DNA from: a virus
Direction: 5' to 3' (one strand)
Length of the DNA: 54,905 nt
Virus record (IMG/VR): IMGVR_UViG_3300046517_000974
Coordinates: 1-54,905 of that record
Made by a program: the position numbers and the translations under genes. The number at the start of each line of letters is the position of its first letter. Position 1 is the first letter of the stretch. The notes beneath the pieces are model-generated. The model worked only from the letters and a program-made list of their open reading frames with translations. It was not told the origin of the DNA and ran no database searches. This document shows, one piece after another, positions 5,907-20,723 of the stretch.

Positions 5907-6043
5907 GAGAAGGCCGTTCGTTCTTCTACTGCCTTGGCAAAGACGGTTTCTGTGCCGCGGAAATCTGCTCGGATAGTTTGCAGAGGTCTGCCTTCCATGC
6001 ACGTTACAACAAACTCGGGAAGATTTACTGGAGGTGGTTGTGA
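5903..6043 (+). CDS. 46-residue protein of unknown function
   Basis: GTG 5903 overlaps the preceding stop (GTGA), with AAGGGGAAG upstream as ribosome site. The protein has Tyr/Phe/Trp and two Cys (FFYCLGKDGFCAAEIC, GKIYWRWL). Its own stop overlaps the GTG of the pseB-like gene, so it is translationally linked to the sugar operon. No family recognised. Confidence 0.6.
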   Translation: MREGRSFFYCLGKDGFCAAEICSDSLQRSAFHARYNKLGKIYWRWL

Positions 6044-6996
6044 GCACCGTGCTCGGCCCGTGGGTGAGGGGCATCTTGATCACCGGCGGTACCGGGTATC
6101 TTGGCCGGGCTCTCGCCAACGCCTGTCTCTACCAGACGCAGGCCGAGCGGATTTGTATCTTCAGCCGCAACGAGTACGCCCAAGCGACGATGCGCCAGTC
6201 GATCCAAGACGCCGACAAGCGGTTGCGTTGGTTCATCGGCGACGTCAGGGACAAGGACCGGCTGCGTCGGGCGTGCGAGGGGATTGACCTCATCATCCAC
6301 GCAGCCGCTCTAAAGCGCGTCGAGGTCGGCGAATACAACCCGCGCGAGATGGTGCTGACGAACGTGAACGGCGCCCTGAACGTGATCGACGCAGCGATCG
6401 ACAACAGGGTCCCAAGAGTAATCGCCGTGTCGACAGACAAGGCTTGTGCCCCATTGAACGCCTACGGCGCGACCAAGTTGACGATGGAGAAGTTGATGCT
6501 GGCGGCGAACAACACCACCGGCGAGAGCGGCCCAATATGCTCAGTGGTGCGCTACGGGAATGTCTCCGGCTCGACCGGCAGTGTGATCCCTACTTGGCGC
6601 GAGATGATCAAGAACGGCGCGAAGTCGGTCCCGGTGACGGACCCTCGCTGCAGTCGCTACTGGATGCGCGTCGACGAGGCGGTGGAGTTGATCCTCTGGA
6701 CGGCGCAGGAGATGGAGGGTGGTGAGCTCGTGGTGCCGCTCCTACCCGCGTATCGGATCGGAGATCTCGCCGATGCCATGGGCGTTGCGGTAGAGGTTAT
6801 CGGCATCGGCGCCGGCGAGAAATTGGACGAGCAGATGGTGTCGCTCCTCGAGTCTCCTGCTTTCCGCTGGGCCGACCCGCACCCCTACATCGTCGCCGGT
6901 GGATTCGCCCGGAATATCGAGCCGAACGTGGGCGGCATCAAGACGCACATCCTGTCGGTCGAGGAACTGCGCACGCTCCTCGAGGCCCTGCCGTGA
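6040..6996 (+). CDS. pseB: PseB-like UDP-GlcNAc 4,6-dehydratase/5-epimerase
   Basis: 318 residues from GTG 6040 (GGAGG five bases upstream, GTGA overlap). Extended SDR fold: the nucleotide-binding GGTGYLG is at 16-22, then FSRNEYAQ, FIGDVRDKDRLRRA, HAAALKRVEVGEYNP and TNVNGALNVIDAAI. The catalytic cluster is STDKACAPLNAYGATK with D133, K134, Y142 and K146, matching the Asp/Lys/Tyr set of FlaA1/PseB enzymes. SVVRYGNVSGSTGSVIP follows. The family converts UDP-GlcNAc to UDP-4-keto-6-deoxy-L-AltNAc, step 1 of pseudaminic acid synthesis, in the cytoplasm. Full family length. CapD-type dehydratases are the alternative, but pseF and pseI candidates downstream favour PseB. Confidence 0.9.
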   Translation: MSTVLGPWVRGILITGGTGYLGRALANACLYQTQAERICIFSRNEYAQATMRQSIQDADKRLRWFIGDVRDKDRLRRACEGIDLIIHAAALKRVEVGEYNPREMVLTNVNGALNVIDAAIDNRVPRVIAVSTDKACAPLNAYGATKLTMEKLMLAANNTTGESGPICSVVRYGNVSGSTGSVIPTWREMIKNGAKSVPVTDPRCSRYWMRVDEAVELILWTAQEMEGGELVVPLLPAYRIGDLADAMGVAVEVIGIGAGEKLDEQMVSLLESPAFRWADPHPYIVAGGFARNIEPNVGGIKTHILSVEELRTLLEALP

Positions 6997-7127
6997 CCTA
7001 CTACGGCTGGCAGGCGATCGTCGTGAGCCTGGTGCTCCTCGCCATGGGCGCAGGATATGTGGCAGTCGCTCTGATCGGTTTCAACCGCTGGCGGGGGAAG
7101 CAAGGTTTCCCGCCGCTGGAGTTTTGA
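6993..7127 (+). CDS. 44-residue single-pass membrane protein
   Basis: GTG 6993 overlaps the pseB stop (GTGA). One strong hydrophobic segment (AIVVSLVLLAMGAGYVAVALIGF) is followed by a basic patch (NRWRGK). Likely an inner-membrane peptide with its C-terminus inside. Role unknown; co-translated within the sugar operon. Confidence 0.6.
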   Translation: MTYYGWQAIVVSLVLLAMGAGYVAVALIGFNRWRGKQGFPPLEF

Positions 7128-7128
7128 C

Positions 7129-7311
7129 GTGAACGAAACGCTTCCGAAAGAACTCCCGAACACGGCATACTACATGCAACTTGCGATGGAACTTCTCGCC
7201 GTAAACGAGTACGAGGCCGTGAAGGTGAGCAAACTCGGATGGCATCGCCTTGATCTCTGGCGTTGGAGGATTGTGTACGTCGCAGGGCTAAAACCGACGG
7301 TGACGCGGTGA
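7129..7311 (+). CDS. 60-residue protein of unknown function
   Basis: GTG 7129 starts one base after the previous stop. The N-terminal half is acidic, the C-terminal half rich in Trp and Arg (LGWHRLDLWRWRIVYVAG). Its stop overlaps the GTG of the pseC-like gene. No family recognised. Confidence 0.55.
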   Translation: MNETLPKELPNTAYYMQLAMELLAVNEYEAVKVSKLGWHRLDLWRWRIVYVAGLKPTVTR

Positions 7312-7997
7312 ACCCCTACCAGGTTGTGAAGGACTTCGAACAGGCGCTGTGCGAGTACACAGGAGCACCGCACGCGGTCACCACCATGAGTTGCACAGCG
7401 GCGTTGCTGCTCGCGGTGGCTTGGCACCTGCGAAACCAAGTGAAGATCGAGGACGGTCGGGAATGGGTCGAGTACCGCCGCACGCCGATCGAAATCCCCA
7501 AGCGCACCTACATCAGCGTGCCGATGAGCATCATCCACGCCGGCGGGCGACCGACCTTCCGCGACGAGGTCTGGCGCGGGGCCTACCAGCTGAAGCCGCT
7601 CCCGGTCTGGGACTGCGCTAGGCGCTTCACGAGCGGCATGTTCCCGCAGATGCAGTGGGATGACGCCACGACCAGAGGCCCGGCCGCCGACACGCTGCGC
7701 CGGCAGATGCTCTGCATATCCTTCCACTGGTCGAAGATCCTCGGCATTCAGCAGGGCGGCGCGATCCTGCTCGATGACCCGGAGGCCGCAGCGTGGCTGC
7801 GCCGGGCGCGCTTTGACGGGCGCACCGAGGGCGTGGCACCCAAAGACGACACCTTCGACTTCGTGGGCTGGCATTTTTATATGTCGCCAGAGATTGCGGC
7901 GGAGGGGCTGCAGCGGATTGGCTTTATTCCTAAGCACAACGCAGACCTTCCAAATGACGACTATCCAGATCTCTCTAAATATGAAATCTTTCGCTGA
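7308..7997 (+). CDS. pseC: PseC-like PLP aminotransferase, shortened DegT family
   Basis: 229 residues from GTG 7308 (GTGA overlap). DegT/DnrJ/EryC1/StrS motifs are in order: ALCEYTGAPHAVTTMSCTAALLLA, RTYISVPMSIIHAGGRPTFRD, the cofactor-site PVWDCARRF, and CISFHWSKILGIQQGGAILLDD with the PLP-binding Lys (SK). PseC transfers an amino group from Glu to the 4-keto sugar made by PseB. The protein is about 150 residues shorter than cellular PseC. About 40 residues between the PTFRD and WDCAR blocks are absent, and most of the C-terminal small domain is missing. It is either a streamlined phage form or damaged at its 3' end, where an HNH gene starts inside it. Confidence 0.72.
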   Translation: MNPYQVVKDFEQALCEYTGAPHAVTTMSCTAALLLAVAWHLRNQVKIEDGREWVEYRRTPIEIPKRTYISVPMSIIHAGGRPTFRDEVWRGAYQLKPLPVWDCARRFTSGMFPQMQWDDATTRGPAADTLRRQMLCISFHWSKILGIQQGGAILLDDPEAAAWLRRARFDGRTEGVAPKDDTFDFVGWHFYMSPEIAAEGLQRIGFIPKHNADLPNDDYPDLSKYEIFR

Positions 7998-8313
7998 TCG
8001 ATTTTGGGCGAAGGTACGAAAGGGACGAGGCTGCTGGCTTTGGCGAGCGGCGCGTCTAAACTCTCCGAGGGGCGGGCAGAGTTACGGATGCTTCCACATT
8101 GGAAGCCGTCGCACTGTTCGACGGATGGTTCCGGCGCACCGCGTATCGTGGCAACTCAAATACGGTTCAATTCCTTCGGGAAAGAAAGTGCTGCACCATT
8201 GCGACAATCCAATCTGTGTTAGGCCGAGTCACCTTTTCCTTGGTACGCAGAAGCAAAACATCGCTGACATGATTCACAAAGGTCGCGGCTGGTGGCAGAA
8301 AGTTGGACAATGA
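7981..8313 (+). CDS. HNH endonuclease (HNH_3 type) 1
   Basis: 110 residues from ATG 7981, overlapping the last 17 bases of pseC. Family pattern: FWAKVRKGRGCWLWRAA, YGCFHIG, AHRVSWQLKYGSIPSGKKVLHHCDNPICVRPSHLFLGT, NIADMIHKGRG. The HNH core has HH (72-73), CDNP and H84. Likely a mobile nicking or homing nuclease placed between pseC and the next genes. ATG 7954 is an alternative start. Its stop overlaps an ATG (8310). Confidence 0.82.
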   Translation: MKSFADRFWAKVRKGRGCWLWRAARLNSPRGGQSYGCFHIGSRRTVRRMVPAHRVSWQLKYGSIPSGKKVLHHCDNPICVRPSHLFLGTQKQNIADMIHKGRGWWQKVGQ

Positions 8314-8360
8314 ACCGCGCAGCGCGAAGGGCTGCCGCGCGGCAAACGAGGAGGAGGAAG

Positions 8361-8552
8361 ATGGCGCAGGAACTCACATCCGGGCCGATCCAAATCGGCC
8401 ACGGCCACACCGACGAGCACGTCTTCGTGCAGTTCACACGTCCGACGAACGACCTCGTCCTTTCGATTGCCCAAGCCGAGGCCTTCATCAAAGCGATGCA
8501 GGAGTCGATCCAGCGGCTGAAGGTCCACATGGAGAAAAAGGCGGGGCACTAA
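8361..8552 (+). CDS. small conserved-looking phage protein
   Basis: 63 residues from ATG 8361, preceded by a strong GAGGAGGAAG. A longer reading from ATG 8310 (80 residues, ATGA overlap with the HNH gene) adds an Arg/Ala-rich tail and is also possible. The core, VFVQFTRPTNDLVLSIAQAEAFIKAM, resembles short beta-alpha proteins common in phages. No function known. Confidence 0.65.
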   Translation: MAQELTSGPIQIGHGHTDEHVFVQFTRPTNDLVLSIAQAEAFIKAMQESIQRLKVHMEKKAGH

Positions 8553-8911
8553 TGGCTGACGAGCGCGCACAGGACCTGTATGACCCGAGAGCTCTTCAAG
8601 GTGACGGGAAGACCGAGATGGTGATCTTCGCCCATCAAGGGAAGATCATCCAGCGCTTCCAACGGCCGATGCTCTTCGTCGCCTACGAGCCGACCAACAT
8701 GGGCGAGATCGTGAATCGGATCCTCGGAGCGGTGAAGGACTCCGGCGCCGAGGTCGTGATCAACATGCCGAAGAGGAAGATCACGAAGGCGCAGCGCGAC
8801 GCCCTGATCACCAGGGCGCTGCATGTCTACCGGAGCATGGGCGAGAAGAATCGACACCCGGCCGACATTGCCAAGCACGTCGTCGACTCCGTGATCTCGG
8901 CGATCGAATGA
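8552..8911 (+). CDS. unknown phage protein
   Basis: 119 residues; ATG 8552 overlaps the previous TAA. An alpha/beta pattern with MVIFAHQGKIIQRFQRPMLFVAYEPTNMGEIVNRIL, then a basic KRKITKAQRDALITRALHVYRSM helix. No family recognised. Position within the sugar operon is the only context. Confidence 0.65.
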   Translation: MADERAQDLYDPRALQGDGKTEMVIFAHQGKIIQRFQRPMLFVAYEPTNMGEIVNRILGAVKDSGAEVVINMPKRKITKAQRDALITRALHVYRSMGEKNRHPADIAKHVVDSVISAIE

Positions 8912-9093
8912 GCCGCCGCGCGAACTGGGGAAAGACGCAGCAGGTCAGCCGCCTCAAGCGGCGGACCCTGCACGATGGTGGAGATCACGGCTGGCAACCG
9001 TCTCTCGCTTCGCAACGACGCGCCGAGAGGCTGCGCACAGCACCTGACGGAACTCCATTGAGGAGGGAGACAAAGTGGGCCGCAAGCAGCTGA
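8908..9093 (+). CDS. small basic protein, doubtful
   Basis: 61 residues with ATGA overlap to the preceding gene and 19 bases of overlap with the next. Arg/Ser/Trp-rich, no recognisable domain. The gene-dense context favours a real gene, because without it 160 bases would be empty. Confidence 0.4.
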   Translation: MSRRANWGKTQQVSRLKRRTLHDGGDHGWQPSLASQRRAERLRTAPDGTPLRRETKWAASS

Positions 9094-9707
9094 GGGTGGC
9101 GATTCTGGGGAACGGGGCCGGCGCGAGCTCGTGGCTGATGTACGACGATACCTGGACCTTCTGGGGAATGAACTCCTGCCACCGACGCATCGAGCCGCCG
9201 CAGTGGGGTTTGATGGCGAACCTGCATCGATTCTCGCACCTTGAGCGCGACTGCGCCGAGTACGTCGACTGGGACAGCAACTTCTCCAGGCGCAACCCGA
9301 AGACGCCGATGCTGGTGGTCGACAGTTGGGGCCGTCTGCTGAAGAACCATGCCATCTACCCGCGCAAGGAAATCGCCAAGATGCCGCGCGGCGAGTACCA
9401 CGCCTCGAGTTTCGACATGCTGGTCGCTTACGCGATCCTTCTGAAGGCGAAGTACATCGACATTCACGGGGCCGGATTCGCGCTCGACAGTCCCAACGAG
9501 GAGCCGATCAGCGCACGCGCGTGCCTCGAGTACTGGTGCGGCTACGCGCAGGGCTTGGGGATAAAGGTCAACGCCTACAGGAGCAAGGGCCTCTTCCGCC
9601 AATTCCACCTTGTGATGACCGATACCTACTACGGCTTCGACGACGTGCGAATGGTCGATGAACCAATGAAATTATCAGAAACAATTCGCGGTTCGCTGCC
9701 ACGATGA
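9075..9707 (+). CDS. Maf/DUF115-like Rossmann protein, possible glycan transferase
   Basis: 210 residues from GTG 9075 (GAGGAGGGAG upstream). Opens RVAILGNGAG, a nucleotide-binding-like loop, then DDTWTFWGMN, SSFDMLVAYAILLKAKYIDIHGAGFALDS and a late segment ACLEYWCGYAQGLGIKVNAYRSKGL. The order resembles DUF115/MptE-like proteins, the fold at the heart of Maf flagellin-nonulosonate transferases, and of a protein encoded at 24839-26074 here. Its gene touches pseF (ATGA overlap). I infer a role with the activated sugar, perhaps transfer or sensing; catalysis is unproven. Confidence 0.6.
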   Translation: MGRKQLRVAILGNGAGASSWLMYDDTWTFWGMNSCHRRIEPPQWGLMANLHRFSHLERDCAEYVDWDSNFSRRNPKTPMLVVDSWGRLLKNHAIYPRKEIAKMPRGEYHASSFDMLVAYAILLKAKYIDIHGAGFALDSPNEEPISARACLEYWCGYAQGLGIKVNAYRSKGLFRQFHLVMTDTYYGFDDVRMVDEPMKLSETIRGSLPR

Positions 9708-10258
9708 ACGTCTGCATCATCCCGGCGCGTGGGCAAAGCCGCAGAATTCCTCGGAAGAACATCCGCGACTTCATGGGCAAGCCGGTCATCGCTTACAGCA
9801 TCGAGGCGGCGAAGGCGAGCGGTTTGTTCGACGATGTGTGGGTGAGTACGAACGATGAAGAGATCGCGCACGCGGTTCGTCCATACGGAGCGATGGTGAT
9901 GTGGCGCAGCGAGAGGCTCTCGCAGGACGAGATAGGGACGCAGGCAGTGATGAAGGATGCGCTGCTGACGCTGGTCGACGCGAAACAGAAGCATGATCAT
10001 GCCTGCTGCATCTACCCGTGTGCGCCGATGCTCCTGCCTATCGATCTCACGACCGCGTATGGGGTCTTAATGCGTGCGAAGAGTCGCTACGTGATGATCG
10101 AGGGACTGATCTATTTCGGTCGCAGCGCCGACTTCATCGCAGGGGCACCCCTTGAAGGGAACTCGGCCGTGATGGCCGGCAGCCAGCGCTACATCGACAT
10201 CAACGTCGAGGACGATTGGAAACGGGCGGAAGAACTTTACAAGGAGATGGCGACGTGA
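9704..10258 (+). CDS. pseF: PseF/NeuA-like CMP-nonulosonate cytidylyltransferase, shortened
   Basis: 184 residues with ATGA overlap. CMP-sialate-synthetase motifs: IIPARGQSRRIPRKNIRDFMGKPVIAYSIEAA (P-loop-like CTP site, about 5-36), DDVWVSTNDEEIAH, IYPCAPMLL, and C-terminal DINVEDDWKRAEELY. It would activate the nonulosonic acid with CTP to CMP-sugar. Cellular PseF is about 230 residues; the stretch between the AP block and the DIN block is about 40 residues shorter here and lacks the usual Arg-Ser-Gln region. Activity may be altered. Confidence 0.85.
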   Translation: MNVCIIPARGQSRRIPRKNIRDFMGKPVIAYSIEAAKASGLFDDVWVSTNDEEIAHAVRPYGAMVMWRSERLSQDEIGTQAVMKDALLTLVDAKQKHDHACCIYPCAPMLLPIDLTTAYGVLMRAKSRYVMIEGLIYFGRSADFIAGAPLEGNSAVMAGSQRYIDINVEDDWKRAEELYKEMAT

Positions 10259-10869
10259 ATACCAAGCAGGAGGAGATGTGGCGTGGACACTTCGGCGACG
10301 AGTATGCGCTTCGCTCGCCTGGGAACGAACTGTCGAACCGAGGGTTCTTCACCAGCGTCCTTCGCCAGAACGAAAACAAGCGCCTCGAGCTTGGCTCGAT
10401 CGTCGAGCTCGGTGCCGGGGTGGGGAGCAACCTTCGGGCGCTGCACTGGATGTACCCTGGCGCAGAACTCGCCGCGGTCGAGCTGAACGACTCAGCGGCC
10501 GGGAAGCTTCCGGCCTACGTCGATCTGCATCTCGGCTCGATCCTCGACTGGGAGCCGACCAAGAAATACGAACTCGCCTTCACTAAGGGCGTGCTGATCC
10601 ATATCAATCCCGATCACTTGGGCATGGCCTACGAGACCCTGCACCGCGCCTCAAGCCGCTGGATCCTGATCGCCGAGTACTACAACCCCACTCCGGTCGA
10701 GGTCCAATACCGAGGGCATGAGGGGCTCCTCTTCAAGCGCGATTTCGCCGGCGAGATGCTCGATCGGCACAAGGACCTGAAGATGAAGGGCTACGGCTTC
10801 GTCTGGAAGCGCGACCCGGACTTTCCCCAGGACGACATTACCTGGTTCCTGCTGGAGAAGCAGGCATGA
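10255..10869 (+). CDS. pseudaminic-acid-biosynthesis-associated methylase
   Basis: 204 residues from GTG 10255 (GTGA overlap with pseF). Class I SAM-dependent methyltransferase: EEMWRGHFGDEYALRS, the glycine loop VELGAGVGSNL, acidic VELND, then TKGVLIHINPDHL, ILIAEYYNPTPVEVQYRGHEG, FKRDFAGEML, DPDFPQDDITWFLLEK. This series is the signature of the pseudaminic acid biosynthesis-associated methylase family, found in nonulosonate loci. It probably methylates a sugar intermediate or the finished sugar; the exact substrate is not known. Confidence 0.9.
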   Translation: MNTKQEEMWRGHFGDEYALRSPGNELSNRGFFTSVLRQNENKRLELGSIVELGAGVGSNLRALHWMYPGAELAAVELNDSAAGKLPAYVDLHLGSILDWEPTKKYELAFTKGVLIHINPDHLGMAYETLHRASSRWILIAEYYNPTPVEVQYRGHEGLLFKRDFAGEMLDRHKDLKMKGYGFVWKRDPDFPQDDITWFLLEKQA

Positions 10870-11129
10870 ACCGCCGTGGCTTCCTCGCCGGCGTACTGGC
10901 ACTGCCGGCCGCGCCGCTGCTCGCCGCACTGCCTAAGCCGGCGCTCTATGGACAATCGGCGATCGCGGAAGCGATGCGCGACTTGCTGCTCCTACAGGCT
11001 GAGAGAATCGTCAACCCGCCAGTGATCATGATGCCTACGCCAGACGGAATGCAGTTTTATTCGCTGCAATTCATCGAGGAACGCGATGGGCGGCACGCGG
11101 TTATCTCAAGATTGAGTGGTGGCCTGTGA
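10866..11129 (+). CDS. small exported protein with twin-arginine-like signal
   Basis: 87 residues, ATGA overlap. The N-terminus MNRRGFLAGVLALPAAPLLAALP is a classic n/h/c signal with RRGFLAG, close to the Tat consensus; signal peptidase I cleavage is likely after residue 20-21. The mature part is about 65 residues with no recognised domain. Exported small phage proteins often change the cell envelope, which would fit the surface-sugar context, but that is inference. Confidence 0.68.
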   Translation: MNRRGFLAGVLALPAAPLLAALPKPALYGQSAIAEAMRDLLLLQAERIVNPPVIMMPTPDGMQFYSLQFIEERDGRHAVISRLSGGL

Positions 11130-12244
11130 TCCGCTGCAAATTGTGCGTTATCCCAGACACGCGCCCCGACACCGCCTTCGTCGACGGGGTGTGCGCAGCC
11201 TGCATCGCCTACGCGAAGCGGCCGCAGATCGACTGGGAAGCGCGCCGCGGTGAACTCGTGGCGCTGGTCGAAAGGATGAAGGACTACGCCAAGAGCCACA
11301 ACAACCCGTTCGACTGCATCGTCCCGAGCTCTGGCGGGAAGGACAGCACCTATCAGGTACTGACGTTGCTGGAGCTCGGCGCGCGGCCACTCGCGGTCAC
11401 TGCATCGACCTGCCACCTCACTCCGATCGGGCGCGAGAACATCGAGAACCTGAAACGCTACGTGACGACGATGGAAGTGAGCCCTCCGCGCATGGCGCGC
11501 GCAACGCTGAATCGGATCGGCCTCACCCACGTCGGCGACATCAGTTGGCCAGAGCACGTCAGCATCTTCACCACGCCGTTCAAGATCGCAATCGCTCTCA
11601 GGATCCCGTTCATCTTCTACGGCGAGAACCCGCAGAATCAATACGGCGGTCCTCTCGAGGAGCAGGAAGCGCGCATTATGACCAAGCGCTGGGTCTCGGA
11701 ATTCGGCGGCTTCCTTGGACTCCGCGCGCCTGATCTCGTTGGTGTCGAAGGACTGACCGAGAACAACATGGCCGATTACATTCAGCCCGACTGGGCCGAG
11801 GGAGTGAAGCTTGGTCTCGAGGCGCATTTCCTTGGGCAGTACATTCCGTGGGATTCCCAACACAACGCCGTGACCGCGGCGAACGCCGGGATGAAGTGCC
11901 AACTGCCGACCGCTGCAAACCTCTGGGCCTGCGAGAACTTGGACAACGCCCAGACCGGGATCCACGATCATTTCATGTACCGCAAGTATGGCTTCGGCCG
12001 TGGCGCCGCTCAGGCGAGCGTCGATGTCCGAGTAGGTCGATTGACGCGCTCCCAGGCGCTCGACTTCGTCGATAGCTGCGACGGAATGTTCCCTGAGCGC
12101 TACGCCGGCGTACACTTTCATGATGTGCTGAAGGGGATTGGCATGAAGGAGGAGGCCTTCTGGGACACTGTCGATCAGTTCACGAACTGGAAACTTTTCA
12201 AACCGTTCAATGGTGACGGTTATCGTCCGGAACTAAAGGCATGA
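11126..12244 (+). CDS. N-acetyl-sugar amidotransferase (PseA/WbpG family)
   Basis: 372 residues from GTG 11126 (GTGA overlap). Zinc-binding C4xxC7 and C23xxC26, then the PP-loop ATP-binding PSSGGKDSTYQ (SGGKDS 69-74) of adenylating amidotransferases, a central NPQNQYGGP segment and a C-terminal helical region. The family converts an acetamido group on a nonulosonate or uronate precursor to acetamidino using ammonia, usually supplied by a HisH/HisF-type pair. A HisF-like gene lies at 17194; no HisH is seen. In C. jejuni the PseA relative makes Pse5Ac7Am. Full family length. Confidence 0.9.
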   Translation: MIRCKLCVIPDTRPDTAFVDGVCAACIAYAKRPQIDWEARRGELVALVERMKDYAKSHNNPFDCIVPSSGGKDSTYQVLTLLELGARPLAVTASTCHLTPIGRENIENLKRYVTTMEVSPPRMARATLNRIGLTHVGDISWPEHVSIFTTPFKIAIALRIPFIFYGENPQNQYGGPLEEQEARIMTKRWVSEFGGFLGLRAPDLVGVEGLTENNMADYIQPDWAEGVKLGLEAHFLGQYIPWDSQHNAVTAANAGMKCQLPTAANLWACENLDNAQTGIHDHFMYRKYGFGRGAAQASVDVRVGRLTRSQALDFVDSCDGMFPERYAGVHFHDVLKGIGMKEEAFWDTVDQFTNWKLFKPFNGDGYRPELKA

Positions 12245-12492: not shown

Positions 12493-12501
12493 GGGAAAAG
12501 G

Positions 12502-13041: not shown

Positions 13042-13054
13042 GTAATCGCCACGC

Positions 13055-13921: not shown

Positions 13922-13948
13922 GCAACCGTTGCACGGAGGGGGTATCCG

Positions 13949-14854
13949 ATGACAAAAGATAGAGAACCGTCTGCCACAGGGGGTCGATTGACTAATAGCG
14001 AACGGGCTGCGCGAGGCGAGCCAGTGGCCTACGTCGTCCGCTCCTTCTCGGACGGATCAATCGGCTCAGAGATTGCCCCCGTCAACTACCTGTTGCACGA
14101 CCACGACCTGGAGAAGCTGAAGAACGATCCTTGGGTGGTCAATGGGAAAGCGGAGATCGTTCCGCTCTATTTATCGCCAGTTTCGGAGACATTACCGAAC
14201 CAACCACCGGAAGCTGCGCTTATCGCCATCGAGAAAGAAATGGCGTGGGAATACGATCCAGTTCACGAGGACGCAAAAATGATCTACAGCGCCATTTTGA
14301 AGGCGCTCCAATCTGCCACTCGGCCAACTGAACACACCAAGAGCGCGGAGCGGGTAGCGCAGTCCGCCGCCATCAAGGAGGACGGGCACACCGTGCGCTC
14401 GTCATCCGCTGAACGTGCCGACGATAAGCACGACGAAACGATGGGCGACGCAGCTCACGCTTTCGTGGAGGACATGGTGAAGCGCGAGAAGTACGACTAT
14501 CCGGCGGAGAACGCATGCGGCTGGGGCTACCTCTGGCACGGTTGGGCGCTGCGCGATGCCTTCTACGCTGGCGTGCGTTGGGCTGAGGCGCGGCCATCCG
14601 CAACACTCACGCCATTGGAGAAGCTGGCGCTCGACATGCTCGCCGCCTTCCGCGAGATCGGGATCGGCGACATTGACGGCGGATGGTTTCAGGACACAGC
14701 AGAGAAACTAGGCGTGCTGGTGCCTACGGAAGCGAGGGAGCCATGCGGCGAGGCTTGCGGGTGCGCTGAGTTGGGCGACTTCCCGCAAATCTGCTACCGC
14801 GACAGCGACGAGGTACATCAGAAGCGGTTGTTATACGTAGGGGGTAAGTTGTGA
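13949..14854 (+). CDS. unknown phage protein, 301 residues
   Basis: ATG 13949 with GGAGGGGG upstream. The N-terminal part starts GEPVAYVVRSF, the middle is a low-complexity linker (about 120-165), and the C-terminal part has WHGWALRDAFYAGVRWAEA and a Cys-rich CGEACGCAEL. The largest gene of the accessory island. Proteins with an EPVAYV opening and a DAFYAGW-like helix recur in phages without known function. Confidence 0.68.
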   Translation: MTKDREPSATGGRLTNSERAARGEPVAYVVRSFSDGSIGSEIAPVNYLLHDHDLEKLKNDPWVVNGKAEIVPLYLSPVSETLPNQPPEAALIAIEKEMAWEYDPVHEDAKMIYSAILKALQSATRPTEHTKSAERVAQSAAIKEDGHTVRSSSAERADDKHDETMGDAAHAFVEDMVKREKYDYPAENACGWGYLWHGWALRDAFYAGVRWAEARPSATLTPLEKLALDMLAAFREIGIGDIDGGWFQDTAEKLGVLVPTEAREPCGEACGCAELGDFPQICYRDSDEVHQKRLLYVGGKL

Positions 14855-15066
14855 AGCGGCTCTCGCTCCGACCGGACCCGTGGAATCGCTGGATCTACCA
14901 GAACGACCACCCGCGATACAACAGCGACGAGGCCAAGGATTTGCGCGAGCGGCACGGACGAGCGTTGCAGAGCGCTCCGCAGTGGATGCGGGACGAGGCG
15001 CTTGGCAACGACTATCTCGCCGACATGCAACGCCACGACATACATTCACCAGTGAGGAAGCCATGA
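14851..15066 (+). CDS. 71-residue protein of unknown function
   Basis: GTG 14851 overlaps the previous stop (GTGA). Arg/Asp/Trp-rich (LRPDPWNRWIYQNDHPRY). Its stop overlaps the ATG of the next gene. No family recognised. Confidence 0.58.
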   Translation: MKRLSLRPDPWNRWIYQNDHPRYNSDEAKDLRERHGRALQSAPQWMRDEALGNDYLADMQRHDIHSPVRKP

Positions 15067-15272
15067 CCTACGACTGGCAAATTCAGCCCGGAGACTTCGT
15101 GAAGGTGTTCCCCTGCGACAACAGCGACATCTTCTATCGCGGCGTGGTCAAGCACATGCCGCAGCAGACCGGCGAAGCTTGGATCATCGACAGCGACGGA
15201 GTGATCTCCTACCAGCAGACCTATAACCGCATCGTGCTGGTGAAGCGCGACGGTGGAGATTCGTCACGATGA
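15063..15272 (+). CDS. 69-residue small beta-barrel-like protein
   Basis: ATG 15063 within an ATGA overlap. The pattern IQPGDFVKVFPCDNSDIFYRGVVKHMP...WIIDSDGVISYQQ suggests a small SH3-like barrel. Unknown role. Confidence 0.62.
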   Translation: MTYDWQIQPGDFVKVFPCDNSDIFYRGVVKHMPQQTGEAWIIDSDGVISYQQTYNRIVLVKRDGGDSSR

Positions 15273-15580
15273 GCGACTGGCCGGAGGACCGCATTAAGCG
15301 GGTAGCGGCAGAGCGTGATGAGTGGAAGGCGCGTGCTCTGGCCGCTGAAGCGCGGCTACCGGAAGAACTAGTGCGAAAGCAAGGCCATTCCGCGCTGCGC
15401 GTTCGTGACGGCGAGCTAGAGGTCTATGACCCGCACCCGCCCGCCGACGTGAAGGCGGCTGCGGTGGCGTGGGAGCGCAGCTACCAAGTACAGCCCGTCC
15501 TACCGCCCAACGCTTACGAAGGGTTCCTTGCCGGCGCTGCATGGGCAACGCCATCCCCACCTCGGTTGATTGAGAAATGA
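15269..15580 (+). CDS. unknown phage protein
   Basis: 103 residues, ATGA overlaps on both sides. A charged N-terminal helix (RIKRVAAERDEWKARALAAEARL) and a C-terminal YEGFLAGAAWATP motif, common at the end of small phage proteins. No function known. Confidence 0.62.
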   Translation: MSDWPEDRIKRVAAERDEWKARALAAEARLPEELVRKQGHSALRVRDGELEVYDPHPPADVKAAAVAWERSYQVQPVLPPNAYEGFLAGAAWATPSPPRLIEK

Positions 15581-16056
15581 AACGCGGCCGAGACAAACCC
15601 TGCAAGCAGTGCGGCACGCCGTTCTATTGCCCACCGTGCCGTGACGAAGGCGGAGCGCACGTCAAGAAATACTTCTGCTCGAAGGCTTGCGACGTGAAGT
15701 ACCGGGCCAGCTCGACCGGCATCCAGGCGCGGTTCTGGTCCTACGTCGTCAAGCAGGAGGGCGGCTGCTGGCTGTACGAGAAAACCCTCGACGCTGACGG
15801 CTACGGGTACTTCCGCTACGGGCACCGGGGCGGACTGCGGCAATGGTTCGCCCATCGCTTCTCGTGGACCATAGCGAACGGTGACGTGCCGAAGGGTCTG
15901 TGCGTATGCCATACCTGCGACGTTCGCAACTGCGTGAACCCTGCGCATCTCTGGATCGGGACGCATGACGACAACATGAAGGACATGCACCGCAAAGGCC
16001 GTGGCAGCTTCGGGCGTAGGCCACCCCAACCTCAGCACTCCGAAAGGAAGCCATGA
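15577..16056 (+). CDS. HNH endonuclease (HNH_3 type) 2 with N-terminal zinc finger
   Basis: 159 residues. The N-terminal Cys cluster PCKQCGTPFYCPPC...FCSKAC binds zinc, probably DNA-targeting. The HNH part: FWSYVVKQEGGCWLYEKTLDADGYGYF, AHRFSWTIANGDVPKGLCVCHTCDVRNCVNPAHLWIGTHDDNMKDMHRKGRG. Related in domain type to the nuclease at 7981 but with an added finger. Likely a mobile nuclease within the accessory island. Confidence 0.85.
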   Translation: MKRGRDKPCKQCGTPFYCPPCRDEGGAHVKKYFCSKACDVKYRASSTGIQARFWSYVVKQEGGCWLYEKTLDADGYGYFRYGHRGGLRQWFAHRFSWTIANGDVPKGLCVCHTCDVRNCVNPAHLWIGTHDDNMKDMHRKGRGSFGRRPPQPQHSERKP

Positions 16057-16247
16057 GCGACCCCTTCAAGCCTTCGATCACCCTACTGGTGAAGCTCGGA
16101 TCAATCGCCGTCCACCTGGAGGAGATTCTGTCTCCGAGCGGGCACATCTTCGACCGGCACGCCCTGCAAACGCTGTGGGACGACGAAGAGGTAAAGGAAT
16201 GGCTCGCGCAGATGAACAAGATGGCGATGCTTCCGGTGAAGAGGTGA
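16053..16247 (+). CDS. 64-residue protein of unknown function
   Basis: ATGA overlap with the HNH gene. Helical; the middle (IAVHLEEILSPSGHIFDRHALQTLWDDEEVKEWL) is a pattern found in short phage proteins. Its stop overlaps the next GTG. Confidence 0.6.
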   Translation: MSDPFKPSITLLVKLGSIAVHLEEILSPSGHIFDRHALQTLWDDEEVKEWLAQMNKMAMLPVKR

Positions 16248-16393
16248 GGATTGTCCTGCACAACCGCTGGACTTCTCGCAAGGCGTTCTACGTGCGCTGG
16301 GCGCGCGAGTTCTTCTGGCGCACGACCAAGCACAAACAAACGTGGCTGAGGCAACGCGACGCCGCACACTCACGCTTGACGGAGGAGAAATGA
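16244..16393 (+). CDS. 49-residue basic protein of unknown function
   Basis: GTG 16244 (GTGA overlap). Rich in Arg, Lys and Trp (HNRWTSRKAFYVRWAREFFWRTTKHKQTWL), which suggests nucleic-acid or membrane-surface binding. No family recognised. Confidence 0.55.
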   Translation: MRIVLHNRWTSRKAFYVRWAREFFWRTTKHKQTWLRQRDAAHSRLTEEK

Positions 16394-16590
16394 GCCACAG
16401 CATCAGTTTCTATAGCAACTGGACGGTCCACTTCAACGGCGGATTCGACGGCGATGTTGAGTTCGTCGCCCCGGACGGAACGAAGCACGCGATTCCTTTT
16501 CATGCTGTCGAAGCGGTAGTGGCCGAGAAAATCAAACGGGATCGCATCTCCACGCTGGAAAACATGGACCCAAGGGACTTACTCAAGTGA
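16390..16590 (+). CDS. 66-residue protein of unknown function
   Basis: ATG 16390 with GACGGAGGAGAA upstream and ATGA overlap. Beta-rich first half (SISFYSNWTVHFNGGFDGDVEFV), helical second half. No family recognised. Confidence 0.62.
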   Translation: MSHSISFYSNWTVHFNGGFDGDVEFVAPDGTKHAIPFHAVEAVVAEKIKRDRISTLENMDPRDLLK

Positions 16591-16621
16591 CAGGCCACAC
16601 TACTCTGGATGGGGTATCCCA

Positions 16622-16852
16622 ATGAAGTTCTATCGCGTGCGTTATTCAGTCAATGGCGGCAACCACGGCGGCTTTAGCTGGCACACAGCGATGAGCGATG
16701 CCAAGGAATGCGCTGCGGCAGCCGTGGAGAACGACCCGGAGGAATACAAGGTCCTCGAACACCCGCCGATCCAGACCATCGAGATCGAGCCGACGAAGAA
16801 AGGCATCCTCAAGGCGCTCAGGCTGTACGCAGAGCACCCGGACAACGGATGA
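16622..16852 (+). CDS. 76-residue protein of unknown function
   Basis: Follows a 31-base gap with a weak ribosome site. Small alpha/beta protein (KFYRVRYSVNGGNHGGFSWHTAMSDAKECAAAAVEND). No family recognised. Confidence 0.6.
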   Translation: MKFYRVRYSVNGGNHGGFSWHTAMSDAKECAAAAVENDPEEYKVLEHPPIQTIEIEPTKKGILKALRLYAEHPDNG

Positions 16853-17040
16853 ACGCCGACTGGACCGAGGAGTATTTGACCATGATCGAAGACTGCGAGA
16901 AGCGCGAGCAAAAGCTGTCCGCGTGGGACGTGGACTTTCTTTCTTCGGTGAAGGACCGGCTGATCGACAAGAAACCGCTGTCGCAGAAGCAGATCGACTG
17001 CCTCGACGGCATTTGGGAAAGGGCAACGAAAAATGGTTAA
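16849..17040 (+). CDS. 63-residue protein of unknown function
   Basis: ATG 16849 (ATGA overlap). Acidic helical protein, with FLSSVKDRLIDKKPLSQKQIDCLDGIWERAT at the C-terminus, a pattern seen in small early proteins of other phages. No function known. Confidence 0.62.
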   Translation: MNADWTEEYLTMIEDCEKREQKLSAWDVDFLSSVKDRLIDKKPLSQKQIDCLDGIWERATKNG

Positions 17041-17164
17041 GGGCTACTACAAGGTTCCGTTCCGGCAGGTGTACTGCGAGACGCTGCGGCACTGGCTTGC
17101 CTCGGTGCTTCTGTGCCACGTCGTCTACTGTCTCGCCCCGCCGAAACTGCCGAAGATCGGCTGA
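17033..17164 (+). CDS. 43-residue protein with one hydrophobic segment
   Basis: ATG 17033 overlaps the previous stop by eight bases. WLASVLLCHVVYCLAPP could be a membrane segment. Last gene of the accessory island before hisF. Confidence 0.48.
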   Translation: MVKGYYKVPFRQVYCETLRHWLASVLLCHVVYCLAPPKLPKIG

Positions 17165-17193
17165 AGCATGCCGACCCTGAACGGTAACAACTG

Positions 17194-17949
17194 ATGCCGC
17201 TCGCCCACCGGATCATCCCCACCTTCCTGGTGAAGGACGGAAACTTGGTGAAGGGGAAACGATTCGCTGGAGATCGCGTGGTCGGGCACGCGCTGCAGGC
17301 GATCATGATCCAGGCCGCCCGCGGTGTCGATGAGATGGTTCTCCTCGACATCGGCGCGACGGCGCGCGGCAAGGGTCCGAATCTGGAGCTCGTGGGCAAA
17401 CTCACCGATAGATTGTTTTCTCCGCTCGCTGTTGGCGGTGGTATTTATTCTGTGGAAGACGTCCGTGCGGTATTGCGCGAGGGAGCCGACAAGGTCGTTC
17501 TTGGCTCCCTCGCGGTGGAGAGCCCGCGGCTGATGTATCAGATCGCTCGGGTGGTGGGGAACCAGGCCATCGTCGCCTCGCTGGATGTCAGGGCCGGCAT
17601 CGTATTCAGCCGCAACGGCAAGGTCGCGTCGACCGTCATCCCGAGCCCACACCCACCGACTATGGCAGCGATGCTGCAGGACCACGGCGCCGGCGAGATC
17701 CTGCTGCAGTCGATCGACAGGGATGGGATGATGTGCGGCTATGATCTGGACCTGATCGCGGATGTTCGCCAAGCGGTGACTCTGCCGATCGTCGCTTCGG
17801 GGGGATGTGGCACCTACGAGCACATGCTCGAGGCACTTGACGCAGGCGCGAGCGCGGTCGCCGCGGGCGCGATGTTTTTGTTCACCGATCAGACTCCAGC
17901 GGGCGCCGCCCGCTATCTGGCCGAGCATGGTGTGGAGGTTAGGCTTTGA
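17194..17949 (+). CDS. HisF-like amidotransferase partner for sugar modification
   Basis: 251 residues, a (beta/alpha)8 barrel of the HisF family: RIIPTFLVKDGNLVKGKRF, DEMVLLDIGATARGKGPN, PLAVGGGI, ADKVVLGSLA, IVASLDVRAG, GAGEILLQSIDRDGMM, PIVASGGCG. The first catalytic Asp of histidine-pathway HisF (D11 of the T. maritima enzyme) is Leu here, in TFLVKDG, while the Asp of ASLDV is kept. Loss of the first is what I expect for HisF homologues that feed ammonia to sugar amidotransferases (WbpG/HisF2 type). It likely pairs with the amidotransferase at 11126. HisH is not visible. Confidence 0.85.
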   Translation: MPLAHRIIPTFLVKDGNLVKGKRFAGDRVVGHALQAIMIQAARGVDEMVLLDIGATARGKGPNLELVGKLTDRLFSPLAVGGGIYSVEDVRAVLREGADKVVLGSLAVESPRLMYQIARVVGNQAIVASLDVRAGIVFSRNGKVASTVIPSPHPPTMAAMLQDHGAGEILLQSIDRDGMMCGYDLDLIADVRQAVTLPIVASGGCGTYEHMLEALDAGASAVAAGAMFLFTDQTPAGAARYLAEHGVEVRL

Positions 17950-18125
17950 AGAAAATCAATGCGGCGCGAGTAGCGTGGCTACAGACCTATCGGCGCATAC
18001 GAGTGGTGCGCCGCGAATCGCACAAAGCGAACCTTGATCTAGCCATGTACGGGACGGGCGTTATTCTCATGCCGTCGGATGGAGGAGATCCTCGGCACAT
18101 TCCTCTCCGGGAGGTAAGACTATGA
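17946..18125 (+). CDS. 59-residue basic protein of unknown function
   Basis: TTG 17946 overlaps the hisF stop (TTGA), and its own stop overlaps the next ATG. Arg-rich N-terminal half (AARVAWLQTYRRIRVVRRESHK). No family recognised. Confidence 0.5.
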   Translation: MKKINAARVAWLQTYRRIRVVRRESHKANLDLAMYGTGVILMPSDGGDPRHIPLREVRL

Positions 18126-18589
18126 GCCTGATCAAACTGCAAGGGGTGCCGCACCCGGATCTCAACGGTGGCAAGCCGCAGGCGGTCTACATCGACGCGA
18201 GTCGCGTGCTGCTCATCATCCAGGGGCACGTTTCCCACCCGAAGATCGGCAGCGTGGAGAACCAGCGCGATCTCTACGACCAGCTGCACGAGGCGAGTGA
18301 ACGGCTGAACCGCACGATCAACGAGTACATCCCGAACATGACCGACCCCGTCGCGGTGGAGTGGGTGAGAACCATCAATGGCATGGGAGCCGCCGTAAAC
18401 GACGCCTACCACCACTGGGGACAAGCGTATCGCCAAGGGAAATACCATCCCAGTGTCGACTGCACCGAGGTCCAGCTCGCCTGCGGAACGGCTCTCGAGC
18501 ACGGCGTGATGCTGACCAGGGTCTGGGTGAGCGACAGCGTCGAGGACGTTGCCTTGGCCGTCGCCAGGGCAACGCACACCTACAAGTGA
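18122..18589 (+). CDS. unknown phage protein
   Basis: 155 residues with GGGAGG upstream. Opens SLIKLQGVPHPDLNGGKPQAVYIDASRVLLI, a small beta region, then two helices. It shows none of the glycosyltransferase-like motifs expected of PseG, the missing pathway enzyme, so I do not assign that role. Function unknown. Confidence 0.68.
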   Translation: MSLIKLQGVPHPDLNGGKPQAVYIDASRVLLIIQGHVSHPKIGSVENQRDLYDQLHEASERLNRTINEYIPNMTDPVAVEWVRTINGMGAAVNDAYHHWGQAYRQGKYHPSVDCTEVQLACGTALEHGVMLTRVWVSDSVEDVALAVARATHTYK

Positions 18590-19086
18590 AACTCCTCGCC
18601 GTCTACGACGGCACCGGGATCCGGGTTGGTGCTCTGGAATTCCTCTACGAGCTCATGAAAGAGCGCGACCCAGAGATCAACATCAGCCACAGCACGCTGC
18701 CGACGATGGACCAGCATCGGGCATTCGTGACGAGCCGCCCATACCGCTTCTGGTACCTGCTCGAGGCCACGGACTTCCAGACCAAAAACCCAGAACGCGA
18801 CCATCCATGGATCGGCTACATCAGCGCGACGCGCGACAATGAGATCGGGATCGTGCTCCTGCGCGCCTGGCGCGGCCATGGCTTCGGCGCCCAGGCGGTC
18901 CAGGAAATGATGAGCACACACAAACCGAACCCAGCGGAGCCGAGCGTGCGCTCTGGCCATTGGCTCGCCAACATCGCCCCGGGGAACGAGTACTCGCGCC
19001 TGATGTTCCTGAAACTCGGATTCCGCAAGATCCAGGAGACCTACCAATTCAACGAGGAGGAACCACATGGCGTCCAAGACGCTTAA
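18586..19086 (+). CDS. GNAT acetyltransferase, PseH candidate
   Basis: 166 residues from GTG 18586 (GTGA overlap). GNAT acetyl-CoA motif A is clear (GIVLLRAWRGHGFGAQAVQEMM, with the R-G-H-G-F-G loop), and motif B follows (ANIAPGNEYSRLMFLKLGFRKIQETY). In pseudaminic acid synthesis PseH acetylates the C4 amino group made by PseC. The gene lies between hisF and pseI, which supports that role, but its substrate cannot be read from sequence. The first 60 residues do not look like typical PseH. Confidence 0.72.
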   Translation: MKLLAVYDGTGIRVGALEFLYELMKERDPEINISHSTLPTMDQHRAFVTSRPYRFWYLLEATDFQTKNPERDHPWIGYISATRDNEIGIVLLRAWRGHGFGAQAVQEMMSTHKPNPAEPSVRSGHWLANIAPGNEYSRLMFLKLGFRKIQETYQFNEEEPHGVQDA

Positions 19087-19591
19087 AAAAGCCGAGATAC
19101 ATCCGCTCGACGCTCTCGCCGCGAGTCCCGAAAAGGTGATGGCGCTCATGCTCTGGAAGGCCCGCCACCGCGAGCCGGATCTCTATGTCAAGATCGACGA
19201 GAACGACCTGAAGGGTTTCGACGACTGCGTGGCCTACCTCAAGGTCGAGCCCTTGGTGCTGATCAAGCGGCCTGCCGGCCTACCGGCGCAGGCAGGTATC
19301 CCTGCCACGCATAACCGTCGCGCGGTCCCCGGGCGGGAAGCCATACCTCCCAAGCCCTTCGTCATCGCGGCCCTGGTCGACAAGCAGACCAAGGACGCGA
19401 TCCGGCCGATCGAGAACAACGAGGGCGATTTCGACACCGCGGCGCAGGCCGCGGCCGTGCGCAAGGCCCGCGACCAAGCCCAGGATCTCGCCCAACGTCT
19501 TCTCCAGCAGGCCCGCAGCGGCGAGTACTCCCTCTCCGACATGACCGACTCTGCCAACGCTCTTATCACCATGGCGCGGGCGCTCGCGTGA
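19067..19591 (+). CDS. unknown phage protein
   Basis: 174 residues starting 20 bases inside the GNAT gene, with GAGGAGG upstream. A basic N-terminus, a Pro/Ala linker (RPAGLPAQAGIPA) and a C-terminal helix (AAQAAAVRKARDQAQDLAQRLLQQA), likely coiled coil. No family recognised. Confidence 0.65.
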   Translation: MASKTLKKAEIHPLDALAASPEKVMALMLWKARHREPDLYVKIDENDLKGFDDCVAYLKVEPLVLIKRPAGLPAQAGIPATHNRRAVPGREAIPPKPFVIAALVDKQTKDAIRPIENNEGDFDTAAQAAAVRKARDQAQDLAQRLLQQARSGEYSLSDMTDSANALITMARALA

Positions 19592-19722
19592 TGTGCTTTC
19601 GCTGGCCGATCGGTACCAAAAAGCCAGCGCGTTACGCGCTGACGTTCGGGTTTGTCTCCGGGGGCCTCTTGGTCAGCTGGTTCGACGGCAAGATTCACTG
19701 CGGGAGATTCTTCGTCCTGTGA
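19588..19722 (+). CDS. 44-residue protein with hydrophobic segment
   Basis: GTG 19588 (GTGA overlap with the gene before; its TGA overlaps the pseI GTG). A basic start (FRWPIGTKKPARY), then ALTFGFVSGGLLVSWF, which may span the membrane. Role unknown. Confidence 0.48.
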   Translation: MMCFRWPIGTKKPARYALTFGFVSGGLLVSWFDGKIHCGRFFVL

Positions 19723-20723
19723 AGGTCGTTGCCGAACTTTCCTGCAACCATCAGGGAACCCTAGAGCGGGCGCACGAACTCGTGCATGCCGCCGCGCTCG
19801 CCGGCGCGCACGCGATCAAACTGCAGACCTGGACCTCGGACACCATGGTCCTCGACAGGGCGGTGGTGCTCGAATCAGGCCCCTGGGCGGGCCACAACCT
19901 CTCCCAGCTCTACGCCGAGGCCCACACCCCATGGGAGTGGCACCGCCCTCTATTCGAAGCAGCCAGAGCTCACGGCATGGAGGCCTTCTCGAGCGTATTC
20001 GACCTGGACGCCCTTGAACTCCTCGAGGGGCTGGAATGCCCAAGGTACAAGATCGCCTCTTTCGAGCTCGTCGACATCCCCCTCATCAGGGCGGTGGCGA
20101 AGACGGGGAAGCCCATCATCCTGTCGACCGGCATGGCGACCCGCCCGGAAGTCCAAGACGCCGTTGAGGCTGCGCGAGACGGAGGAGCCAGAGACATCAC
20201 CCTGCTGCAATGCACCAGCGCCTACCCCGCCACCGGCGCCGATGCCAACCTGCGCACCATGCGGGACTTTCTCTCGCTGGGGTGCCAGATAGGTCTCTCC
20301 GACCACACTCCTGGGATCGGCGTCGCCTTGGTCGCAGCTGCCTGGGGTGCGACGATGATCGAGAAGCACTTCACCCTGTCGCGCGCCGCCGGGGGTCTTG
20401 ACGCAGCCTTCTCCCTCGAGCCCGATGAACTCGCCGCCCTCGTGCGCGAGATCCCCAACGTCGTGAACTGCCTCGGGAAGATGGAGTACGGCCCGAAACC
20501 TTCCGAGATAGCCCAGCGCGATCTGCGAAGAAGTCTCTACTTCGCCAAGGACATGCGTGCTGGCGCCTACGTCGGTAAGGAGCACGTCGTCACCGCCAGA
20601 CCTGCCTTGGGACTCCCTCCCAGGTTCTACGGCACCGTCCTAGGGTCCAAGTTGCTCGTCGACGTCCGCGCGGGTCAGCGCGTGACCTGGGAAGAGCTCG
20701 AGAAGCGCGAAGTGATTCAGTAG
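19719..20723 (+). CDS. pseI: PseI-like pseudaminic acid synthase (NeuB family)
   Basis: 334 residues from GTG 19719 (GTGA overlap; upstream codons are a shadow). NeuB-family barrel with AELSCNHQGTLERAHELV and the region WTSDTMVLDR, GPWAGHNLSQLYAEAHTPWEWH that is typical of PseI rather than sialate NeuB, then SSVFDLDALELLE, YKIASFELVDIPL, ILSTGMA, QCTSAYPA, GLSDHTPG, IEKHFTLSR. A C-terminal SAF (antifreeze-like) domain starts about residue 270 at RRSLYFAKDM. It condenses a 6-deoxy-AltdiNAc sugar with phosphoenolpyruvate to a nine-carbon pseudaminic acid. Near-normal length; last gene of the sugar operon. Confidence 0.93.
   Translation: MKVVAELSCNHQGTLERAHELVHAAALAGAHAIKLQTWTSDTMVLDRAVVLESGPWAGHNLSQLYAEAHTPWEWHRPLFEAARAHGMEAFSSVFDLDALELLEGLECPRYKIASFELVDIPLIRAVAKTGKPIILSTGMATRPEVQDAVEAARDGGARDITLLQCTSAYPATGADANLRTMRDFLSLGCQIGLSDHTPGIGVALVAAAWGATMIEKHFTLSRAAGGLDAAFSLEPDELAALVREIPNVVNCLGKMEYGPKPSEIAQRDLRRSLYFAKDMRAGAYVGKEHVVTARPALGLPPRFYGTVLGSKLLVDVRAGQRVTWEELEKREVIQ

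Follow-up and report, generated by a model that had tools for sequence, protein, structure and literature searches.

The DNA analyzed here, hereafter the window, is a stretch of 54,905 nucleotides (positions 1 to 54,905 of the IMG/VR virus record IMGVR_UViG_3300046517_000974) in which genes for what is very probably a pathway to a pseudaminic-type (Pse) nonulosonate lie beside genes for a phage particle. The record is assigned to a podovirus because PHROGs names in it a large terminase subunit (TerL), a portal/head-tail adaptor, a major head protein and two tubular-type tail proteins, which agrees with an earlier note on this DNA that had placed unmistakable phage genes beside the sugar genes. 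The closest TerL relatives among those listed, at ~37-40% identity, belong to phages of Limnohabitans, Caulobacter, Acidovorax and Bordetella. The main genes of the window run rightward from ~4.6 kb. Eight sugar genes occupy one strand between 6.0 and 20.7 kb (Table 1), and the sugar module reaches past 20.7 kb to a transferase candidate next to TerL.

Profile and structure matches of the sugar genes

Each protein was ranked against NCBIfam profiles with their curated cut-offs, and Pfam, PHROGs and Protein Data Bank (PDB) matches were taken alongside. For the PseI-like synthase, TIGR03586 scores 398.7 bits (cut-off 340.25, passed) against 264 for NeuB, and the family profile matches pseudaminic acid synthase 8h2c at 334 bits versus 183 for SiaC. 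The Pse-associated methylase (TIGR03587, 219.5 bits, cut-off 112.05) and the WbuX-type amidotransferase (TIGR03573, 231.4 bits, cut-off 203.2) also pass, the latter with an N-acetyl sugar amidotransferase as its PDB match. The PseB-like dehydratase has TIGR03589 as its best model (337 bits, E 9e-101; cut-off 407.75, missed), and its family profile ranks the uridine diphosphate N-acetylglucosamine (UDP-GlcNAc) C6 dehydratase 2gn4 (367 bits) above CapE (295) and WlaL (179). TIGR03588 is best for the PseC-like aminotransferase at 36.6 bits (E 2e-9; cut-off 423.5, missed), which passes the Pfam cut-off for the DegT family (PF01041, 57.6 bits, cut-off 19.8). The PseF-like protein reaches 164.6 bits with its best model, TIGR03584 (cut-off 205.7, missed), and has NeuA 9ftb as its top PDB match. 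The HisF-like protein scores 223 bits with the WbuZ model TIGR03572 (cut-off 299.7) and 222.3 with the AglZ/HisF2 model NF038364 (cut-off 310), both missed, and the histidine HisF model lies lower at 192 bits. The GNAT protein is recognised by Pfam alone, marginally. At E 0.001, the window's PseF, WbuX, PseI, methylase and transferase candidate have no PHROG match.

Inspection of these rankings bears on what the earlier note proposed as a check, namely searches with TIGR03589, TIGR03588, TIGR03584 and TIGR03586: the Pse models come out on top for PseB, PseC, PseF and PseI. Hits favouring CapD-type or other families, which the earlier note had named as counter-evidence, were not found; Pse-type families rank first, and the profile ranking together with the PDB matches rules out a CapD-, bacillosamine- or NeuB-type pathway. 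A role of the HisF-like gene in histidine biosynthesis is ruled out as well, in that the WbuZ/HisF2 models outrank histidine HisF. In this family, Leu stands in 94 of 98 rows at the column that we take to be the catalytic cyclase Asp of histidine HisF.

Active-site columns were counted in family alignments as rows with the letter at the column, where overlapping loci are counted more than once. The PseB YxxxK motif keeps Tyr in 109/109 and Lys in 110/110 rows, with the TDK stretch less strict (Asp 93/110, Lys 86/107). PseC keeps the Schiff-base/pyridoxal phosphate (PLP) Lys in 131/131 and the PLP Asp in 132/132 rows, and the Ser column is also kept. The SGGKDS loop of WbuX is present in 105-106 of 105-106 rows, apart from a single departure at its final Ser, and its four Cys in 104-105 of 104-105; PseI retains Glu in 94/94 and His in 92/93 rows. 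Median ratios of nonsynonymous to synonymous substitution rates (dN/dS), taken over pairwise, non-independent comparisons at 72-99% identity (number of pairs in brackets), are 0.10 for PseB (15), 0.13 for PseC (49), 0.13 for PseF (2), 0.18 for the methylase (3), 0.16 for WbuX (26), 0.19 for HisF (6), 0.11 for GNAT (1), 0.13 for PseI (7), 0.20 for the transferase candidate (58), 0.18 for the small protein family upstream of it (23) and 0.15 for TerL (64). The pathway values are similar to that of TerL, which rules out decaying genes.

The aminotransferase is unusually short, at 229 amino acids versus 375 in the solved H. pylori PseC and 359-445 in solved DegT/DnrJ/EryC1 relatives; it falls outside the usual length of that family, ~360-440 amino acids with a full small domain. 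Outside the window, family members measure 169-245 amino acids in 94 of 95 deduplicated rows, some clipped by contig ends, and the lone long row (378 amino acids) comes from a bacterial metagenome-assembled genome (MAG). The AlphaFold2 model of the window protein (mean predicted local distance difference test, pLDDT, 92.3) matches DegT-type aminotransferases and aligns with H. pylori PseC 2fni at Z 18.3 (2.5 Å, 196 residues). When genome contigs were scanned with two short-PseC patterns, an approach that picks up close relatives only, two loci were confirmed, 34% (full length, 378 amino acids) and 24% identical. The cultured Flavobacterium phage immuto also has a short aminotransferase (L261, 7986-8630; 214 amino acids, annotated as a transaminase), which adjoins pilin-glycosylation and epimerase genes, a different sugar cluster.

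Table 1 Features of the window, with coordinates in window positions
Feature	Position	Strand	Basis or remark
PseB-like UDP-GlcNAc 4,6-dehydratase, 5-inverting type	6034..6996	+	TIGR03589 top
Short PseC-like PLP aminotransferase, 229 amino acids	7308..7997	+	PF01041; listed open reading frame (ORF) from 7263
Small conserved protein between PseC and PseF	8552..8911	+	Part of ORF 8303-8911
Second, shorter Maf/CstII-like family member	9075..9707	+	Same family profile as 24839-26074
PseF-like CMP-nonulosonate synthetase (CMP, cytidine monophosphate), 184 amino acids, shortened	9704..10258	+	TIGR03584 top
Pseudaminic acid biosynthesis-associated methylase	10216..10869	+	TIGR03587
WbuX/PseA-type N-acetyl sugar amidotransferase	11126..12244	+	TIGR03573
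HisF2/WbuZ-type ammonia-channel partner	17194..17949	+	WbuZ and AglZ/HisF2 profiles top
GNAT acetyltransferase, PseH-step candidate	18589..19086	+	Pfam, marginal; start ~18589 inferred from homologues
PseI-like pseudaminic acid synthase	19593..20723	+	TIGR03586; start uncertain
Small Ser/Thr-rich protein (27% Ser+Thr), possible acceptor of the glycan	24308..24781	+	Position upstream of transferase candidate
Candidate nonulosonate transferase, Maf/CstII-like fold (residues 1-220), extended C-terminus	24839..26074	+	Predicted fold
Large terminase subunit (TerL)	26067..27719	+	PHROG terminase
Portal / head-tail adaptor	28796..30454	+	phrog_332
Major head protein	32102..32962	+	phrog_3437 from residue 223 of ORF 31433-32962; start inferred
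Two tubular-type tail proteins	33880..37239	+	phrog_394, phrog_376

Recurrence of the gene set in related virus contigs

A query with the PseI protein returned five related virus contigs. Four of them encode these enzymes too, and in three of the four the enzyme genes are lined up with those for TerL and portal. Profile fetches extended the sample with short PseC (102 virus contigs, 80 kept), WbuX (77) and the transferase candidate (109 hits, 80 kept). Loci sharing sequence were merged into 113 groups, which include the window plus two contigs from bacterial MAGs, and many groups without the full set are short or clipped loci. All eight enzyme families occur in 46 of the 113 groups. The order PseB-PseC-PseF-methylase-WbuX-HisF-GNAT-PseI is kept in 29 of these 46; of the remaining 17, two have a best locus in which the line is incomplete and the others follow different orders, and all are one-stranded. 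The GNAT family is present in 64/113 groups, and the small conserved protein between PseC and PseF, with zero Pfam and zero PHROG matches, in 46/113. Among 22 whole virus records, most of them picked for carrying pathway genes, a PseI match is found in 22, with 18 over the cut-off. The presence of these genes in tens of related contigs rules out chance, and a bacterial contaminant contig is ruled out by the many records in which that gene order is found next to TerL, portal and head genes.

Reference phages give a different count: among 50,697 records, PseI-like proteins occur in three (26-33% identity), short PseC in seven, and WbuX and the transferase candidate in none. Phages carry single sugar genes, and in the open-licence PubMed Central (PMC) literature no phage-encoded Pse synthesis pathway was found. 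The rarity that the earlier note claimed is therefore borne out for reference phages; read as a single oddity, the claim gives way to a trait common to many related contigs.

Not every short PseC keeps this company. The PseC family is present in 95 groups. In 13 of them the fetched stretch contains no member of the other seven families, and in 15 it holds a PseB/short-PseC pair without the other six (L058, L059, L060, L066, L071 and others), such pairs being found on virus contigs as long as 215 kb. These pairs perhaps serve other 4-amino-sugars.

Trees of two enzymes were built from phage rows with at least 270 (PseI) or 300 (WbuX) aligned residues and cellular rows with at least 200. In the WbuX tree, a quick tree, 69 of 71 phage rows form one clade apart from eight cellular rows (Shimodaira-Hasegawa-like approximate likelihood ratio test, SH-aLRT, 97), with a long-branch warning for the two rows outside or near the clade. 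In the PseI tree, which 11 of 12 cellular PseI loci entered and where 21 of 59 inner branches are open, neither the phage (51) nor the cell (11) rows fall on one side of a branch, with two changes each. The trees do not settle the origin of the enzymes, because the cellular rows are plasmid records and one MAG only. An Azospirillum plasmid (L243, 2380-8345) carries clustered genes for a GNAT protein, a NeuB-family synthase, asnB, an N-acetyl sugar amidotransferase and a methyltransferase, a set that resembles part of that of the phage.

The transferase candidate and its surroundings

The gene directly 5' of TerL, which the earlier note had overlooked, encodes a candidate transferase. Neither this protein nor its shorter relative upstream of PseF has a Pfam match. 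The AlphaFold2 model of residues 1-294 (mean pLDDT 87.9) was aligned with PDB candidates, where the top structural match is Maf 5mu5 (Z 10.2, 3.1 Å, 155 residues), followed among sialyltransferases by CstII/Cst-I chains at Z 8.9-9.6 and a human enzyme at 6.5; the next unrelated fold scores 4.5. Values below 8 may reflect a common arrangement, and the best Maf and CstII rows lie above 8. CstII uses CMP-sialic acid. Most of the matches in a viral library are to proteins without a name, MptE-like entries appear there at weak E values, and the MptE/Maf-like profile PF01973 matches 4 of 53 family members at E <=1 (best 0.09), the window protein not among them. Maf is reported to add nonulosonates to flagellin (PMC4065374, PMC13317340). 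The fold alone does not settle the activity; we favour a CMP-nonulosonate transferase because the gene is linked to the CMP-Pse pathway.

This linkage was counted in several ways. Among transferase-fetched loci that have 8 kb or more of upstream sequence, 22/25 carry at least four pathway families (21/24 groups after deduplication), while 55 loci have too little upstream sequence. One of the three exceptions (L226) belongs to a record that has PseI, plus five pathway families in another locus. Conversely, TerL-bearing groups fetched by pathway proteins contain the transferase candidate in 41 of 42 cases; over all fetched loci it is 82/83, a figure inflated by the transferase-fetched loci. In 80 groups, at most 1.5 kb separates the end of the candidate from TerL. 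PseI is present in 16 of the 20 transferase-bearing contigs of at least 45 kb among those listed, and 38 of the 46 full-pathway groups have the transferase in their fetched loci. In 14 further records, the transferase profile matches in five and PF01973 in five, a union of eight; in other pathway-bearing phage records, the PF01973 gene lies near the major head protein gene in three of four PF01973 loci read. Coupling of the transferase with the pathway is strong, not absolute.

The gene immediately before the transferase belongs to a ~155-residue family (median 26% Ser+Thr) with conserved Ser/Thr runs. Of the 71 groups in which the sequence reaches far enough, 70 have a member of this family that begins no more than 1.6 kb upstream of the transferase. 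As an acceptor its product is a hint and not proof, because Ser/Thr-richness is not unique to it and no informative PHROG match marks it.

Other features of the window lie around these genes. Four look-alikes of HNH-type homing endonucleases were noted by eye at 818-1435 (-), 2434-2883 (-), ~7960-8313 (+) and 15577-16056 (+), the last two among the pathway genes. Two leftward genes, for a YqaJ-type recombinase and an ERF single-strand annealing protein, lie at 1808-2437 and 2922-3701 (-). A second GNAT-like protein (27716-28171), whose family occurs in 12 loci, stands directly 3' of TerL. A tRNA-Met (CAT) at 31665-31739 falls between the gene at 30756-31655 and that for the major head protein, where ORF 31433-32962 spans the tRNA. 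A 2,687-residue protein at 40456-48519 has zero Pfam matches at E 0.001.

Interpretation and comparison with known systems

We read the locus, with moderate confidence, as that of a phage that makes a CMP-activated, likely acetamidino-modified Pse and glycosylates its own virion structural protein. Given the pathway, the virion is a reasonably probable target. PseB and the short PseC would convert UDP-GlcNAc to the 4-amino-4,6-dideoxy-AltNAc (N-acetylaltrosamine) nucleotide sugar, and the GNAT protein would acetylate the amino sugar in the role of PseH. After removal of UDP by a host or unrecognised enzyme, PseI would join the sugar with phosphoenolpyruvate to give pseudaminic acid, which PseF would then activate with CMP. 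WbuX and the HisF2-type partner, using ammonia that is either free or supplied by a host glutaminase, would convert one of the N-acetyl groups to acetamidino, and methylation by the methylase may follow. The protein with the Maf/CstII fold would then attach the sugar at Ser/Thr residues of a structural protein of the phage, for which the best candidate is the small Ser/Thr-rich protein encoded just upstream of it, and the resulting virions would bear a sialic-acid-like, partly charge-neutral coat. Gene content and order, conservation, retained active sites, purifying selection, predicted folds and gene neighbourhood are observed here; we infer the exact sugar, the PseH, PseG and HisH steps, the transferase activity, the acceptor and the benefit.

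More tentatively, widespread uncultured podoviruses may place a self-made acetamidino-Pse on a dedicated Ser/Thr-rich virion protein through a Maf-fold transferase, with virus-specific short enzymes that would make the phage almost independent in building such a coat. If so, some phages would make sialic-acid-like virion sugars by a conserved, almost complete route that leads from UDP-GlcNAc to a CMP-activated nonulosonate and its transfer, which would raise testable ideas on how the particles adsorb, how stable they are and how hosts or grazers recognise them. The set also offers new compact enzymes, a ~200-residue PLP aminotransferase and a shortened CMP-sugar synthetase.

Several results weigh against virion glycosylation by a complete phage pathway. 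PseB, PseC, PseF and HisF2, though top-ranked, all fall under their curated cut-offs. The GNAT protein matches no PseH model (four family members scanned), so the PseH-model search proposed by the earlier note did not show it to be PseH. PseG is found in 0 of the 22 whole records, which may be incomplete, by a search positive in 5 of 14 control genomes, and the HisH glutaminase in 0 of these same 22, with 14/14 control genomes positive; both functions may come from the host or from an unrecognised phage protein. The near-complete pathway in one rightward operon that the earlier note described accordingly stands as regards its eight gene types, all present, and is qualified by the missing PseG and HisH, the four sub-cut-off matches and the short PseC.

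The transferase and acceptor assignments meet objections of their own. The tie to Maf is one of predicted fold only: Foldseek alone gives no significant PDB match for the model at E 0.001, comparison of the family profile with phage PF01973 proteins gives a probability of 7%, and an archaeal pterin pyrophosphokinase (Z 9.5 and 8.7) and thiamin pyrophosphokinases (7.1-8.8) score near Maf. Four of the 20 long transferase-bearing contigs lack PseI, and three of these also lack WbuX: the record of L217 has PseB, HisF and WbuX, that of L036 short PseC and no WbuX, and those of L182 and L230 neither PseI nor WbuX. Eight of the 46 full-pathway groups have no transferase in their fetched loci; the records of L128, L008, L014 and L155 hold a transferase or PF01973 protein, and neither was found in the whole records of L025, L026, L033 and L088 (13-34 kb). 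Other proteins of the window, starting at 21738, 22075, 32975, 48967 and 50294, reach 21-25% Ser+Thr, and no informative PHROG match marks the candidate acceptor family as a virion protein.

An unlikely alternative is that, in the course of infection or lysogeny, the pathway alters host lipopolysaccharide, capsule or flagellin with acetamidino-Pse against superinfection, the sugar being placed by Maf-like or host transferases. Prophage enzymes that alter Pse of the A. baumannii capsule are known (PMC12053666), a tyrosine integrase is present in 7 of the 22 related records, and the transferase fold resembles that of a flagellin transferase. Set against these points are the place of the transferase by packaging and structural genes, close to TerL in the 80 groups counted above, and a search that found no tyrosine integrase in the window's record, where integrases of other types were not searched for. 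The earlier note had offered virion decoration and remodelling of host lipopolysaccharide or flagellin side by side; virion decoration is favoured here, no positive evidence for host-surface remodelling was obtained, and the latter is less favoured because the genes identified as transferase candidates lie in the packaging/head gene block.

It is rather improbable that the phage enzymes boost or divert an existing host pathway, with the host giving PseG and HisH and the phage the other steps. That division of labor fits the 22 records in which neither gene was found, but PseB, PseC, PseI and PseF are kept under purifying selection, beyond the needs of modifying a host sugar. Least probable of all is another 4-amino-sugar or nonulosonate as product, with the Maf-like protein an unrelated nucleotide or pterin kinase: the sub-cut-off PseB, PseC and PseF scores, the short PseC relative in the different sugar cluster of immuto, the PseC groups with PseB only or no other family and the pyrophosphokinase folds would suit it, whereas PseI and the Pse methylase pass their cut-offs, PseI is closer to pseudaminic acid synthase than to sialic acid synthases, and transferase and pathway co-occur. 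Use of the sugar in DNA modification was also considered.

The proposed synthesis and virion transfer of Pse by the phage can be set beside several known systems. Campylobacter phage Gp047 (PMC4690887) concerns the same sugar class; it binds host flagellar acetamidino-Pse, with no synthesis. EpaA/EpaB of Acinetobacter prophages (PMC12053666) are likewise phage genes acting on Pse, where two enzymes convert a host-made sugar, which differs from the synthesis and transfer proposed for the window. The putative capsid glycosylation of mycobacteriophage Maravista (PMC11256854) shares the proposal of decoration by phage transferases, there of the capsid, and its abstract mentions neither a nonulosonate nor a sugar-nucleotide pathway of the phage itself. 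The WbuX-HisH-HisF2 system of a Sphingomonas exopolysaccharide locus (PMC11340318) also clusters WbuX with HisF2, while HisH was not found in the 22 phage records. A further comparison is with the bacterial CMP-Pse pathways and Maf flagellin glycosylation of Aeromonas caviae, where synthesis takes five genes and a single maf gene accompanies them (PMC4065374), and Campylobacter jejuni (PMC4065374, PMC13317340). The phage set would follow the same PseB/PseC/PseI/PseF chemistry with a PseA/WbuX-type step, a Maf-fold transferase (predicted here) and the logic of a Ser/Thr acceptor. In contrast to the bacterial systems, it is virus-encoded, its PseC and PseF are short, PseG was not found and its GNAT protein is unlike PseH; its transferase candidate lies in the packaging block, and its probable acceptor is a phage protein.

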